NCBI RefSeq assembly: GCF_000337035.1
Contig: NZ_AOJL01000062.1
Span: forward strand, 111,968-169,793
DNA from: Halorubrum coriense DSM 10284
GTDB taxonomy: Archaea > Halobacteriota > Halobacteria > Halobacteriales > Haloferacaceae
DNA length: 57,826 nt
Direction of reading: 5' to 3'
The notes under the pieces were generated by a model. It was not told where the DNA came from and did not search any database. It saw only the letters and a program-made list of their open reading frames with translations. Below are positions 12,955 to 40,737 of the stretch, one piece after another. The stretch's first letter is position 1. Each line of letters starts with the position of its first letter. A program made the translations under genes and the position numbers.

Positions 12955-13133
12955 AGCAATTCCTAATCCTGTTTCTCTGCGGGTAGACCAGTTGCCGATA
13001 CGCGTGCTGTATTCAGCACGCCTCTCTGGAAATCGACAAAATCTGGCAGGATCTGTAGCGGTGCGTCCGCACACTTCAGCGCCCGGATGTTTCAGACAAT
13101 AATGTGTCTGAAGAATAGGATTTCAACAGAGCC
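12955..13133 (-). repeat. MITE-like copy of the GGCTCTGTTGAAATCC repeat family
   Basis: Read on the minus strand from 13133, it starts with a terminus identical for 26 bp to that at 11766, continues through the conserved 65-bp block (TTCAGACA...CTGAAACA...CCGG.CGCTGAAG) and contains the hairpin CGTGCTG-TATT-CAGCACG at 13003-13020. It abuts the IS right end at 12954 directly, so the IS may have inserted next to or into it. Confidence 0.6.
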
Positions 13134-15104: not shown

Positions 15105-15170
15105 GGCTCTGTCGAAATTCTATTCTTCATATAGGTTCTTGTCTGAAACAGAGACAATATGCTGTAGATG
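15105..15170 (+). repeat. degenerate copy of the 65-bp terminal repeat block
   Basis: GGCTCTGTCGAAATTCTATTCTTCA is followed by TTGTCTGAAACA, a diverged copy of the block at 11766. Nine bases of the terminus (GGCTCTGTT) are repeated directly in front at 15096-15104, as if two ends were joined. It lies 110 bp upstream of a toxin-antitoxin locus. Confidence 0.5.
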
Positions 15171-15230
15171 AGTGATATATAACTATTGGAGATTCTTCAA
15201 CTTCTCCCAACTGATCTTATGTGACTCAAT

Positions 15231-15246
15231 AGTGTGGCGACACACT
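15231..15246 (+). promoter_or_regulatory. candidate operator of the vapB-vapC locus
   Basis: AGTGTGGCGACACACT is an almost perfect inverted repeat 34 bp before the antitoxin start. Antitoxins of the VapB/AbrB type commonly autorepress through such palindromes. No other role is obvious. Confidence 0.4.
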
Positions 15247-15279
15247 AAGATTTTCACGGCCGGTCACACACGGGAAGGT

Positions 15280-15530
15280 ATGAGTAGCGACAGAATCGAT
15301 GCCGAAAACAAAGTGTCTGGGAATCAAGCAAACATCCTGCCCGAATACGGCATGAACTCGATATTGACGACGGTGATCACCTCCGCTGGCATCTCGAAGA
15401 TGACGAGAGTATCCAGGTACAAGTCATCCAACAGCAGACGGGCACATTCACCAATTTCGACGGCTACGTTGGTGAGGAGGCAACCGATGTGACCAGCGAT
15501 CACGACGCTTAGGGCGTCGACGTCGAGTAA
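15280..15530 (+). pseudogene. vapB: VapB/AbrB-type antitoxin, frameshifted and with an early stop
   Basis: The frame from ATG 15280 reads MSSDRIDAENKVSGNQANI, the swapped-hairpin start of an AbrB-like antitoxin. At 15337-15338 one base is missing from what should be a Pro codon, after which the correct sequence continues one frame over as ARIRHELDIDDGDHLRWHL and on to TSDHDA. There a TAG at 15510-15512 stands where I would expect a Trp codon, followed by GVDVE and TAA directly before the toxin ATG. The one-base deletion alone destroys the protein. The neighbouring PIN toxin is intact. The family consensus used here is from memory, so alignment to homologues would settle both lesions. Confidence 0.7.
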
Positions 15531-15965
15531 ATGCTCCGCGCACTCATTGATACATCGGTCCTGTTTACAGCCGCGTACAAGCGAGATAATTCACACGACA
15601 CCGCGCTCCCGGTGCTCCACGGCATCGATAATGGAACGCTCTCGGAAGCAGCCGTCCTTGACTACACTCTCGCCGAGACGTTTAACGGTCTCACGACCCG
15701 CGCCGGACACGACGCAGCCGTCGGTCTCCCCGATCGCATCGAAGAAACCGCCTGCTCCCACATGAACTCACTCACCATCGATGCCTTCGCGACAGGGAAA
15801 TCTCTCTTTCGCCAACACAAACCCCTCTCCGTCGTCGATGCCTGTATTATCGCGTATATACAAACGGAAGGGCTCGGCTGCTTGTATGCATTTGATGATG
15901 ATTTTGACGCTGTTGAGGATGTGTATCGGTTGGATACAGCTACGAATCAATACGATCCGAGCTGA
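15531..15965 (+). CDS. vapC: PIN-domain ribonuclease toxin, VapC-like
   Basis: This 144-residue protein has the PIN-domain acidic set: D7 in ALIDTSVLF, E49 in YTLAETFNGL, D103 in SVVDACIIAY and D122-D124 in AFDDDFD. Its full length and intact active site imply a competent Mg-dependent RNase. The ATG follows immediately after the antitoxin TAA. Because the antitoxin gene upstream is frameshifted, the toxin is either poorly translated, inactive for a reason not visible, or neutralised in trans by another antitoxin. Confidence 0.82.
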   Translation: MLRALIDTSVLFTAAYKRDNSHDTALPVLHGIDNGTLSEAAVLDYTLAETFNGLTTRAGHDAAVGLPDRIEETACSHMNSLTIDAFATGKSLFRQHKPLSVVDACIIAYIQTEGLGCLYAFDDDFDAVEDVYRLDTATNQYDPS

Positions 15966-16057: not shown

Positions 16058-16555
16058 TCAGGTACTATTCTTCCTGTCTGAATGTCTGGAACGCTCGAAC
16101 GCGTTTCGAAGAATGCTCTTATCTAACTCATTTTCTTCAATACCATTGTTAGTTGCGAGAAATGTGATTTCTTCGTCATTCAGAAAACCAACAATGAGTG
16201 GGTATAGTTCCTGTTTATCCCTTTCTGTGTCCTGAATCTCATCCGGCACTTCGATCATATCGTACGATACCTCACCGCTATCGACTTTTTCTGGGTCTAG
16301 GCCGATCCATGTAGCAATCGCTTGGTTGTCATCACTAGCGTAGCGGCGTATGACTTGGTAGAGGTCAAATGGATCCTCCGAACGTATACCGCGCTGAACA
16401 ATAGATTCAGTCTCTTTGTATCCTCGTTCGCGTATTCTTTGATCGATATCTGCGAATTTTGTGGTATTACAGGCACTCTCCAGGAACATATCCCGTTTCT
16501 GTCCAACCACCTGCTCCCGCGAATTTTCACGACTCTTTTCGTTATCTTCACTCAT
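16058..16555 (-). CDS. hypothetical charged protein, 165 aa
   Basis: An ATG at 16555 opens a 165-residue soluble protein beginning MSEDNEKSRENSREQVVGQ. It is rich in charged residues, contains a CNTTKFADIDQRIRERGY segment and appears mostly helical. No family is recognised. The coding frame is A+T-richer than the transporter and cobamide operons, which fits acquisition with the island. The 3' end (16058-16090) carries a TATTCTTCCTGTCTGAATGT stretch that loosely resembles the repeat family, so the C-terminus may have been replaced by repeat sequence. Confidence 0.5.
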   Translation of the reverse strand: MSEDNEKSRENSREQVVGQKRDMFLESACNTTKFADIDQRIRERGYKETESIVQRGIRSEDPFDLYQVIRRYASDDNQAIATWIGLDPEKVDSGEVSYDMIEVPDEIQDTERDKQELYPLIVGFLNDEEITFLATNNGIEENELDKSILRNAFERSRHSDRKNST

Positions 16556-16737
16556 TTTCTATTATTATGTCATTACGTATTGTATTTAGTTATTTGCCAA
16601 TAATCTTCGAACAGTTTGTAATTGCTGAGTGAGTTCCCGGTTTCGCTGTCGACCTGCTCTTGCTTCATACATGGTCAGAAGGTGAACGCCAGACCCAACG
16701 AGGGTACATGACGGGCAACGACGCCGATAGAGAGGAT

Positions 16738-16830
16738 CTACGCCCCGACAGCCACCACTACGTCAACCGCAACACAGAGTGGCACTACGTCGACATCGAA
16801 CAGATACAGGCCAGTAGCCTCAGTTATTAC
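16738..16830 (-). pseudogene. 5' remnant of a VapC-like toxin gene
   Basis: Downstream of the antitoxin gene on the minus strand, a frame reads GLYLFDVDVVPLCVAVDVVV before stopping at 16738. The LYLFDVDVV part resembles the first strand of PIN toxins paired with this antitoxin type (a strand ending in the first catalytic Asp). No start codon survives and the rest of the gene is absent. The call is based on similarity remembered from the family, so it is tentative. Confidence 0.4.
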
Positions 16831-17104
16831 AGGGATTGTCTGCGCCTCGTCGAATGGCATCGCTATGCTTTCGAGCGATTGGACCCACTTCTTCAGTAAT
16901 CGGGTTTGTTTCGCTTTCCTTTGAAGATGTGTTCTCAATGAGTTGTTCCATCCGCTCAATCACTTCGTCGGGGGTGGGTTTAGGCCGAACAATCGCCTTC
17001 CCGTCTTCTTCGTGGATCTCAACTTCTGTACCCGGAGTGATGTTGAGACCTTCGCGCACCTCCTGTGGGAGAACGATTCGTCCCCTAGAATCGACCTTAG
17101 CCAT
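16820..17104 (-). CDS. AbrB/SpoVT-domain antitoxin-like regulator
   Basis: The 94-residue protein from ATG 17104 starts MAKVDSRGRIVLPQEVREGL and continues NITPGTEVEIHEEDGKAIVR, the standard AbrB/SpoVT swapped-hairpin DNA-binding domain. A helical C-terminus follows, the usual toxin-binding part (DEVIERMEQL, GPIARKHSDAIRRGAD). A longer frame to 17188 exists, but the domain begins at the chosen Met. Only a decayed toxin fragment follows, so it is an orphan antitoxin that may still regulate or neutralise another VapC. Confidence 0.8.
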   Translation of the reverse strand: MAKVDSRGRIVLPQEVREGLNITPGTEVEIHEEDGKAIVRPKPTPDEVIERMEQLIENTSSKESETNPITEEVGPIARKHSDAIRRGADNPCNN

Positions 17105-39427: not shown

Positions 39428-39997
39428 ATGCAGGCGACAAAGCTACCGAACGATGCGAAAGCGGGGCCGACCAAGCCCGAGGTCCGTGCGGTGTTGGCGC
39501 GAAAGCTCGCGCTCGGTCCCGACGACCACTTCGTTGAGGTCGGCTCTTGTACCGGCGCGGTAACGATCGAGGCCGCTCGACGCGCGGGGCGGGTGACAGC
39601 ACTCGAACGGAGAGGGGAACGGCTCGAAGCCACTCGAGCGAACCTCGCCGCGAACGAGTACGACGCCGACGTACAGCTCATCAACGCCGAGGCGCCGGAA
39701 CAGCTTCCGGAGGACGGTGACGTGGTTTTCCTCGGCGGATCGCGAAACTACGAGTGCGTTCTCGACGCCGCTGTCGCCGCCGGCTACGATCGGATCGTTA
39801 TGAACGTCTCCCGTCTCGAGGTCGCGGGAGAGGCGGCTCGGGCGTTCCGCGACCGCGACCTCCTCGACGAAGTGCTCTGCCTCCAGATGGCGACCGGTTA
39901 CGACCTCGCGGGCGCGACGAGCTTCGACGCCGACAACCCGGTGTACATGCTCGTCGGCGAGCCGGGCTCTAACAACGATCTGGGTGGCACCGCATGA
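39428..39997 (+). CDS. cbiT: cobalt-precorrin-6B C15-methyltransferase (decarboxylating), CbiT
   Basis: A 189-residue class I methyltransferase. The SAM-binding strand and loop read HFVEVGSCTGAVTIEAARR at about 37-55, where Ser-Cys replaces the usual Gly, followed by VTALERRGERLEATRANL and DGDVVFLGGSRN. It is CbiT, which methylates C15 and decarboxylates the C12 acetate. It is the first gene of a plus-strand operon to about 47.3 kb and overlaps cbiL by four bases. Confidence 0.9.
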   Translation: MQATKLPNDAKAGPTKPEVRAVLARKLALGPDDHFVEVGSCTGAVTIEAARRAGRVTALERRGERLEATRANLAANEYDADVQLINAEAPEQLPEDGDVVFLGGSRNYECVLDAAVAAGYDRIVMNVSRLEVAGEAARAFRDRDLLDEVLCLQMATGYDLAGATSFDADNPVYMLVGEPGSNNDLGGTA

Positions 39998-40737
39998 CCC
40001 TGTACGGCGTTGGACTCGGTCCCGGCGCTTCCGACCTGATCTCCGTTCGCGGCCGGGAGATCCTCGACGGCGTCGACGTGGTGTACTCTCCGGGTCGACT
40101 CTCGCGTGCGGTCGCAACCGAACACGTTCCAGAGAGCCGGATCGGGGACCTCGATTTCCCGATGACGAGCGACGAGGACCGGCTGCGCGAGGCGTGGAAG
40201 GAGGCTGCGGCCGAGATCGCCCCCGAAGCGCGCGACGGCGACGTCGCGTTCGTTACGCTCGGCGACCCGAACGTGTACTCCACGTTCGGACACCTCAGAC
40301 GGACGCTCGATGCGTTCCATCCCGACATCGGCGTGGAGATCGTACCTGGGATCAGCGCGATGACGGCGTTCGCGACGGCGCTCGACGTCGAGGTGGAAGC
40401 CGGCGCCGGACTCGCGCTCCGCGAGGCCGCCGGCGGGCGCGCGCCCACCGGGCCCGACAGGATGGTCCTATTCAAAGTGACTGACGCCCCCGAGACGGCC
40501 CGCAAACTCGACCAGGCGGGATACGACGTGCGGTTCGGGCGGCGGCTGTTCATGGAAGCGGGCGAGACGGTCGTCACCGCAGACGCAGAAAGGGTCGCGG
40601 ACCGCGACTACTACACGCTCGCGTACGCCGAGCGACGCGGCCTCGAGACGTCGCGGGCGACCGACGAATTCGCGGCCGACGCGGACGCGAACAGCCGCGT
40701 CTCCGCGACCGCTGACCCGGAGGTGAGCGATGACTGA
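39994..40737 (+). CDS. cbiL: cobalt-precorrin-2 C20-methyltransferase, CbiL
   Basis: A 247-residue tetrapyrrole methylase. The glycine loop TLYGVGLGPGASDLISVRG is at 2-20 and the substrate loops are FVTLGDPNVYSTFGHLRR and VEIVPGISAMTAFATAL, which match CbiL/CobI. It adds the C20 methyl, an early ring step. The C-terminal 30 residues are an acidic tail. It overlaps cbiT by four and cbiF by eight bases. Confidence 0.92.
   Translation: MTLYGVGLGPGASDLISVRGREILDGVDVVYSPGRLSRAVATEHVPESRIGDLDFPMTSDEDRLREAWKEAAAEIAPEARDGDVAFVTLGDPNVYSTFGHLRRTLDAFHPDIGVEIVPGISAMTAFATALDVEVEAGAGLALREAAGGRAPTGPDRMVLFKVTDAPETARKLDQAGYDVRFGRRLFMEAGETVVTADAERVADRDYYTLAYAERRGLETSRATDEFAADADANSRVSATADPEVSDD

Follow-up and report, generated by a model that had tools for sequence, protein, structure and literature searches.

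Here, we report that a vapBC toxin-antitoxin locus in a Halorubrum draft genome (3.65 Mb, 69 contigs) is most probably a pseudogenised pair in decay, with a toxin made inactive by missense change. The locus lies at 15280–15965 of the window, by which we mean the whole stretch of DNA that was analysed (57,826 nucleotides), and judging from its sequence it is to be read as a vapBC remnant, not as a functional pair. A sequence-only reading of the same DNA had described it as an intact VapC-like toxin behind a frameshifted antitoxin, a state that should be lethal unless the toxin is held in check in some way. The observation is true and its explanation is ordinary: the locus is a copy, in decay, of a haloarchaeal vapBC family that is known and mobile. 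Since the toxin is probably silenced, the seeming paradox of a toxin living without its antidote probably dissolves here.

Two lesions in the antitoxin frame

The vapB antitoxin pseudogene spans 15280..15530 on the + strand. Its frame is opened by the ATG at 15280, reads MSSDRIDAENKVSGNQANI and departs after codon 19 (ATC, 15334–15336). One base is missing at about 15336–15338, and the homologous reading resumes one frame over as ARIRHELDIDDGD...SDHDA (15339–15509). In frame after SDHDA stands a TAG (15510–15512), which replaces a tryptophan codon conserved among the homologues, and then come GVDVE, the TAA at 15528 and the vapC ATG at 15531. Intact homologues read MSSDRIDAESKVSGNQANIPARIRRELDIDDGDQLRWHLEDDG...SDHDAWGVDVE-stop-ATG in a single frame; both lesions in the window are thus real departures and not the mark of two natural proteins. 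A tblastn search with an intact homologue as the query returned the identical two pieces and the TAG. The base loss (earlier placed at 15337–15338) with resumption in the next frame, as well as the TAG near the end of the antitoxin, are confirmed. The alignment to haloarchaeal VapB homologues that had been proposed as a check covered 48 pairs: vapB is continuous and directly upstream of vapC in all of the loci read, and the two lesions of the window compare with none in these 48. A naturally split antitoxin was therefore rejected.

The start-frame product is 70 amino acids long, of which the first 19 are VapB and the remaining 51 are unrelated. We also considered an internal start that would give a C-terminal antitoxin fragment and rejected it, as the second frame holds no ATG, GTG, or TTG start before the GTG at 15489. 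Nor is there an X XXY YYZ slippery heptamer at the site, and with neither of these a truncated or frameshifted antitoxin is not expected. Programmed frameshifting combined with stop readthrough, which would yield a working antitoxin, is hardly credible: the downstream frame still matches an intact VapB at 84% identity over 64 residues (tblastn), but slippery heptamer and homopolymer are both absent, the TAG would be a second barrier before the conserved tail, and no homologue needs such a device. A sequencing or assembly error in front of an intact antitoxin and a functional pair is very unlikely. The genome is a draft and single-base loss is a typical error type; however, the two lesions are separate and of different kinds (one lost base, one nonsense codon), the missing base does not lie at a homopolymer of four or more, and the gene-wide acceleration of the neighbouring vapC (see below) is beyond the reach of a single error. 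Two independent lesions together with this acceleration make a single assembly error a poor explanation.

Operator and TATA-like box are intact

Upstream of vapB lies a palindromic operator, TAGTGTG-GCGA-CACACTA (15230..15247, + strand). In the 28 homologous loci that were aligned, TAGTGTG-NNNN-CACACTA recurs at the corresponding position 5' of vapB, with small variations, and is accompanied by a TTTTCAC-like element. The operator is intact in the window, and a copy with one mismatch to this exact one stands upstream of a paralogous pair in the same genome. The TATA-like element TTTTCACGG (15251..15259, + strand) is conserved in the homologues, intact in the window and begins 29 nt before the vapB ATG, where we infer it to be the TATA box of a leaderless archaeal transcript. 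With operator and TATA-like box both intact, survival is not explained by promoter loss, which we rejected as the silencer, and the silence of the locus probably lies in the activity of the protein instead. Measured against the features of a VapBC module, the locus has the predicted autoregulatory palindrome at its promoter and an upstream antitoxin gene in place, yet the frameshift and the TAG leave that gene short of a full protein.

The toxin frame is open, the toxin probably inactive

The vapC frame (15531..15965, + strand) is open, has the usual stop-ATG junction with vapB and encodes a PIN domain (PF01850, E 1.3e-12) whose fold matches VapC. D7, E49, D122, D124, and D126 are invariant in the 48 homologues and D103 is found in 47 of them; the window VapC keeps all of these, including the acidic set (D7, E49, D103, D122/D124) expected of a PIN toxin. 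What had been said of the open frame and of D7, E49, D103 and the late aspartates therefore holds. Against the NCBIfam VapC equivalog NF047959 the protein scores 17.3 bits (E 0.0038), below the curated cut-off of 80 bits; the scoring covered the window copy, and its result is no sign of damage.

The description of VapC as intact stands for the reading frame and the catalytic acids and fails for the rest of the protein. The window VapC departs eleven times (P2L, A13T, P38S, V41A, L51F, H57R, D65G, L67P, N73T, Y117C, and P140Q) from columns that are invariant among the other 48 sequences or vary in just one of them; the paralogue in its own genome comes next with five departures, followed by two others with three (n = 49). 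Its leave-one-out HMM score is the lowest of the 49 (248 versus a median of 296 bits), and its nearest relative is 81% identical, the lowest nearest-relative value in the set. AlphaFold, given the same 30 sequences, returned a mean pLDDT of 88.8 for the window VapC and 95.8 for an intact homologue, a difference that is no more than suggestive, since AlphaFold was not designed to judge point changes. The drop is largest at residues 61–80 (82 versus 96–97), the site of D65G, L67P, N73T, and F76S, and L67P places a proline inside a predicted helix. Taken together, conservation, codon tests, and models point to a toxin that is probably inactive. The open frame and the complete active site are not evidence of a live toxin, and this caution is worth keeping in mind for other loci.

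Relaxed selection on both genes

Branch omega values were obtained with a codon model written for this analysis, and vapB was tested with its two lesion codons masked. The vapC branch has an omega of 0.38 versus 0.087 elsewhere (LRT 18.4, p 1.8e-5) and the vapB branch 0.235 versus 0.077 (p 0.046). Over the whole branch, omega of the window vapC is significantly below 1 (p 0.008), indicating that part of the branch was under selection. In a two-phase model, roughly 35% of the vapC branch was without constraint, with a support interval from about 0.12 to 0.75, as was 15–20% of the vapB branch; the unconstrained fractions compared (0.37 for vapC, 0.14 for vapB) do not differ significantly (LRT about 3.3, p about 0.07). 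Relative to the nearest sister sequences, the changes tend towards G:C->A:T transitions (22/39 in vapC, 9/11 in vapB). Disabling lesions and selection relaxed relative to the homologues, as expected of a pseudogene or decaying toxin-antitoxin module, are thus both present, and the claim that the toxin is live is not supported by a sequence that shows relaxed constraint. Among the ways out that had been offered earlier, i.e., that the toxin is silent, neutralised in trans or inactivated in a way not visible, the last is the most likely, the inactivation then being one that the active-site residues do not show.

What speaks against decay is that the vapC frame is still open with all catalytic acids kept. 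For the estimated neutral time, the probability of no stop in vapC is about 0.5–0.6 when only stops are counted, so the open frame is not strong evidence against decay; it falls to about 0.07–0.15 once indels are allowed for, at a rate assumed to be 5% of substitutions.

We consider the following course of events to fit best. A normal mobile haloarchaeal vapBC operon would be the starting point of what is now decaying. Missense mutations would have inactivated its toxin earlier than, or at about the time of, the break in the antitoxin, since antitoxin-null cells would otherwise have been removed by selection, and once the toxin was inactive both vapB and vapC would drift. Thanks to an intact paralogous pair that the genome holds elsewhere, the loss may have been tolerable. 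Decay of chromosomal type II pairs has been described (PMC7167474, PMC10305079). Comparing constraint branch by branch across a deep set of homologues is a cheap way to resolve a paradox of toxin without antitoxin such as this one.

An intact paralogous pair and possible trans-immunity

The paralogous vapBC lies on contig C48 at 39842–40522 (L002 and L131), with a toxin 62% and an antitoxin 61% identical to those of the window, and its VapB carries the conserved DAWGVD-E tail. From sequence comparison, this VapB is a better candidate rescuer of the window VapC than the AbrB-type antitoxin near 17104. The window VapC could then be active, with C48 VapB neutralising it and repressing its operator in trans, and the local antitoxin would have become dispensable. 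We regard this as unlikely, with some small chance of being true. The intact pair in the same genome, the tail of its antitoxin, the palindrome shared with one mismatch, and the intact operator and TATA-like box of the window are all in its favour, and so is the fact that homologous toxin-antitoxin pairs can in principle cross-interact (PMC7354431, PMC10305079). Against it, no other sequence of the 49 is as aberrant as the window VapC, which has structural positions changed, and an active toxin is not expected to show relaxed constraint. Moreover, specificity often differs at about 60% identity. The paralogue toxin, too, has a raised omega. Slightly less probable again is a version in which the window VapC is toxic under C48 VapB bound to the intact operator, a single antitoxin guards two toxins and the fast evolution of both toxins (omega 0.38 and 0.7–0.9) is a sign of insulation or cross-talk.

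In one-by-one branch tests, only the C48 paralogue shows a rise comparable to that of the window vapC. The branch omega of this VapC is 0.73–0.9 (p about 2e-5 to 6e-5), and the protein has an intact antitoxin and an intact active site. Its raised omega may reflect relaxed constraint, insulation, or diversification.

The AbrB-type antitoxin near 17104 and other neighbours

An orphan AbrB/MazE-type antitoxin 1 kb away had been noticed earlier and is indeed there: the frame runs on the - strand from an ATG near 17104 down to 16820 (16820..17104) and matches PF04014 (E 1.7e-14). It is the antitoxin of another VapBC family: at seven other Halorubrum loci, a homologue of it stands directly 5' of a different PIN toxin, GGPYLFDVGVIALAH..., which makes rescue of the window VapC by this protein unlikely. 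Neither this second-family toxin nor a remnant of it was found in the window, and the toxin was not found in a genome search, which ran without a positive control. The nearest relatives of the antitoxin (67–68%; L090 and L091, in G026 and G012) are also orphans, each upstream of a ParA-like frame, and the three possibly form a lineage of solitary antitoxins. Neutralisation of the window VapC from here, for which the common broad fold family (PF04014) and the 1 kb distance may be cited, is accordingly rejected as highly improbable, in view of the other partner of its homologues, the orphan state of its nearest relatives and the missing second-family toxin.

Several other elements were seen in the window. 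A 23-bp motif resembling an insertion sequence end, CTCTGTTGAAATCCTATTCTTCA, has six sites within three mismatches (11768, 13109, 14107, 15107, 23328, and 56508; 0 expected), and similar ends occur in many other Halorubrum genomes. There is also a 46-nt inverted pair (13088–13133 and 15105–15150). The motifs look like remnants of insertion sequence ends or MITEs. At 16058–16555 (- strand) lies a 165-amino acid frame whose homologues (69–76%) occur in six further genomes of Halorubrum, one of which (G045) has three copies; the frame matched no Pfam or NCBIfam family above cut-off. A 126-bp stretch (16669–16794) is apparently a gene fragment; its conservation is about 72–79% across at least eight further genomes of the genus.

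The family across haloarchaea

The intact VapB of this family is of AbrB/MazE type (PF04014, E 5.8e-7) and ends with the conserved DAWGVD-E tail in most of the 48 loci, the tail being longer in two (L043 and L053). Close homologues span many haloarchaeal genera and several are plasmid-borne, indicating that the family is mobile. A literature search on vapBC in Halorubrum returned nothing on it. We surveyed 212 haloarchaeal genomes and counted open full-length vapC genes of the subfamily by hand: 75 of 77 have an adjacent continuous vapB, giving a base rate of 2/77 for orphan toxins among open copies. The exceptions are the window and one other genome, G224. In the latter, vapB is apparently cut by an insertion element, with its halves at two contig ends (L133 1–772 and L147 1–900) that carry matching inverted repeats (GGCTCTGGTGAATC and GATTCACCACGGCC) and a short duplication; we infer that the two ends belong together. 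Constraint on the G224 vapC is normal (omega 0.13), and G224 is a better test case than the window for a toxin without antitoxin.

Broken vapC genes beside a continuous vapB were found in G143 (TAG), G060, G219 (two), G166, and G133, and lone or near-lone vapB genes in G017, G051, G037, G028, G221, G189, G082, and others, so toxin-first loss appears to be the commoner route. G010 has a vapB with stops and lacks vapC, and other Halorubrum carry operon remnants as well (a vapB with stops where vapC is gone, a vapB alone, or a truncated vapC). Degenerate copies of the family with a truncated, frameshifted, or internally duplicated vapC are many (L128, L130, L136, L137, L138, L139, L140, and L141); they are ready data for asking which of toxin and antitoxin is lost first.

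Comparison with known systems

The closest solved structure by sequence is Mycobacterium tuberculosis VapC20, a 23S rRNA-specific endonuclease (PDB 5wzf/5wz4; E 4e-6 with an intact homologue as the query), which is also closest by fold (TM 0.77–0.84, 26% identity) and shares the FVDA...YAFDxDF motif with haloarchaeal VapC. It is nevertheless distant from the haloarchaeal family, of which the window holds a copy that is probably degenerate. According to reports cited in PMC7354431, M. tuberculosis has orphan VapC toxins whose active sites are altered. Much nearer are haloarchaeal pairs, chromosomal and plasmid-borne, of an AbrB/MazE-type VapB with a PIN VapC, such as those of Natrarchaeobius chitinivorans (L040) and Haloarchaeobius iranensis (L039). 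Gene order, stop-ATG junction, operator palindrome, and PIN acids are alike, and VapC identity is 81%; vapB is continuous and vapC conserved in these pairs, whereas the window has two vapB lesions and eleven vapC departures. Among decaying chromosomal type II systems, ccdO157 of E. coli, as cited in PMC7167474 and PMC10305079, resembles the window in loss of selection, in nonsense and missense changes and in remnants across related genomes. Unlike such systems, so far as these sources describe them, the window has its nonsense codon and frameshift in the antitoxin while the toxin frame is open, and in our survey it is toxin-first loss that is the commoner.
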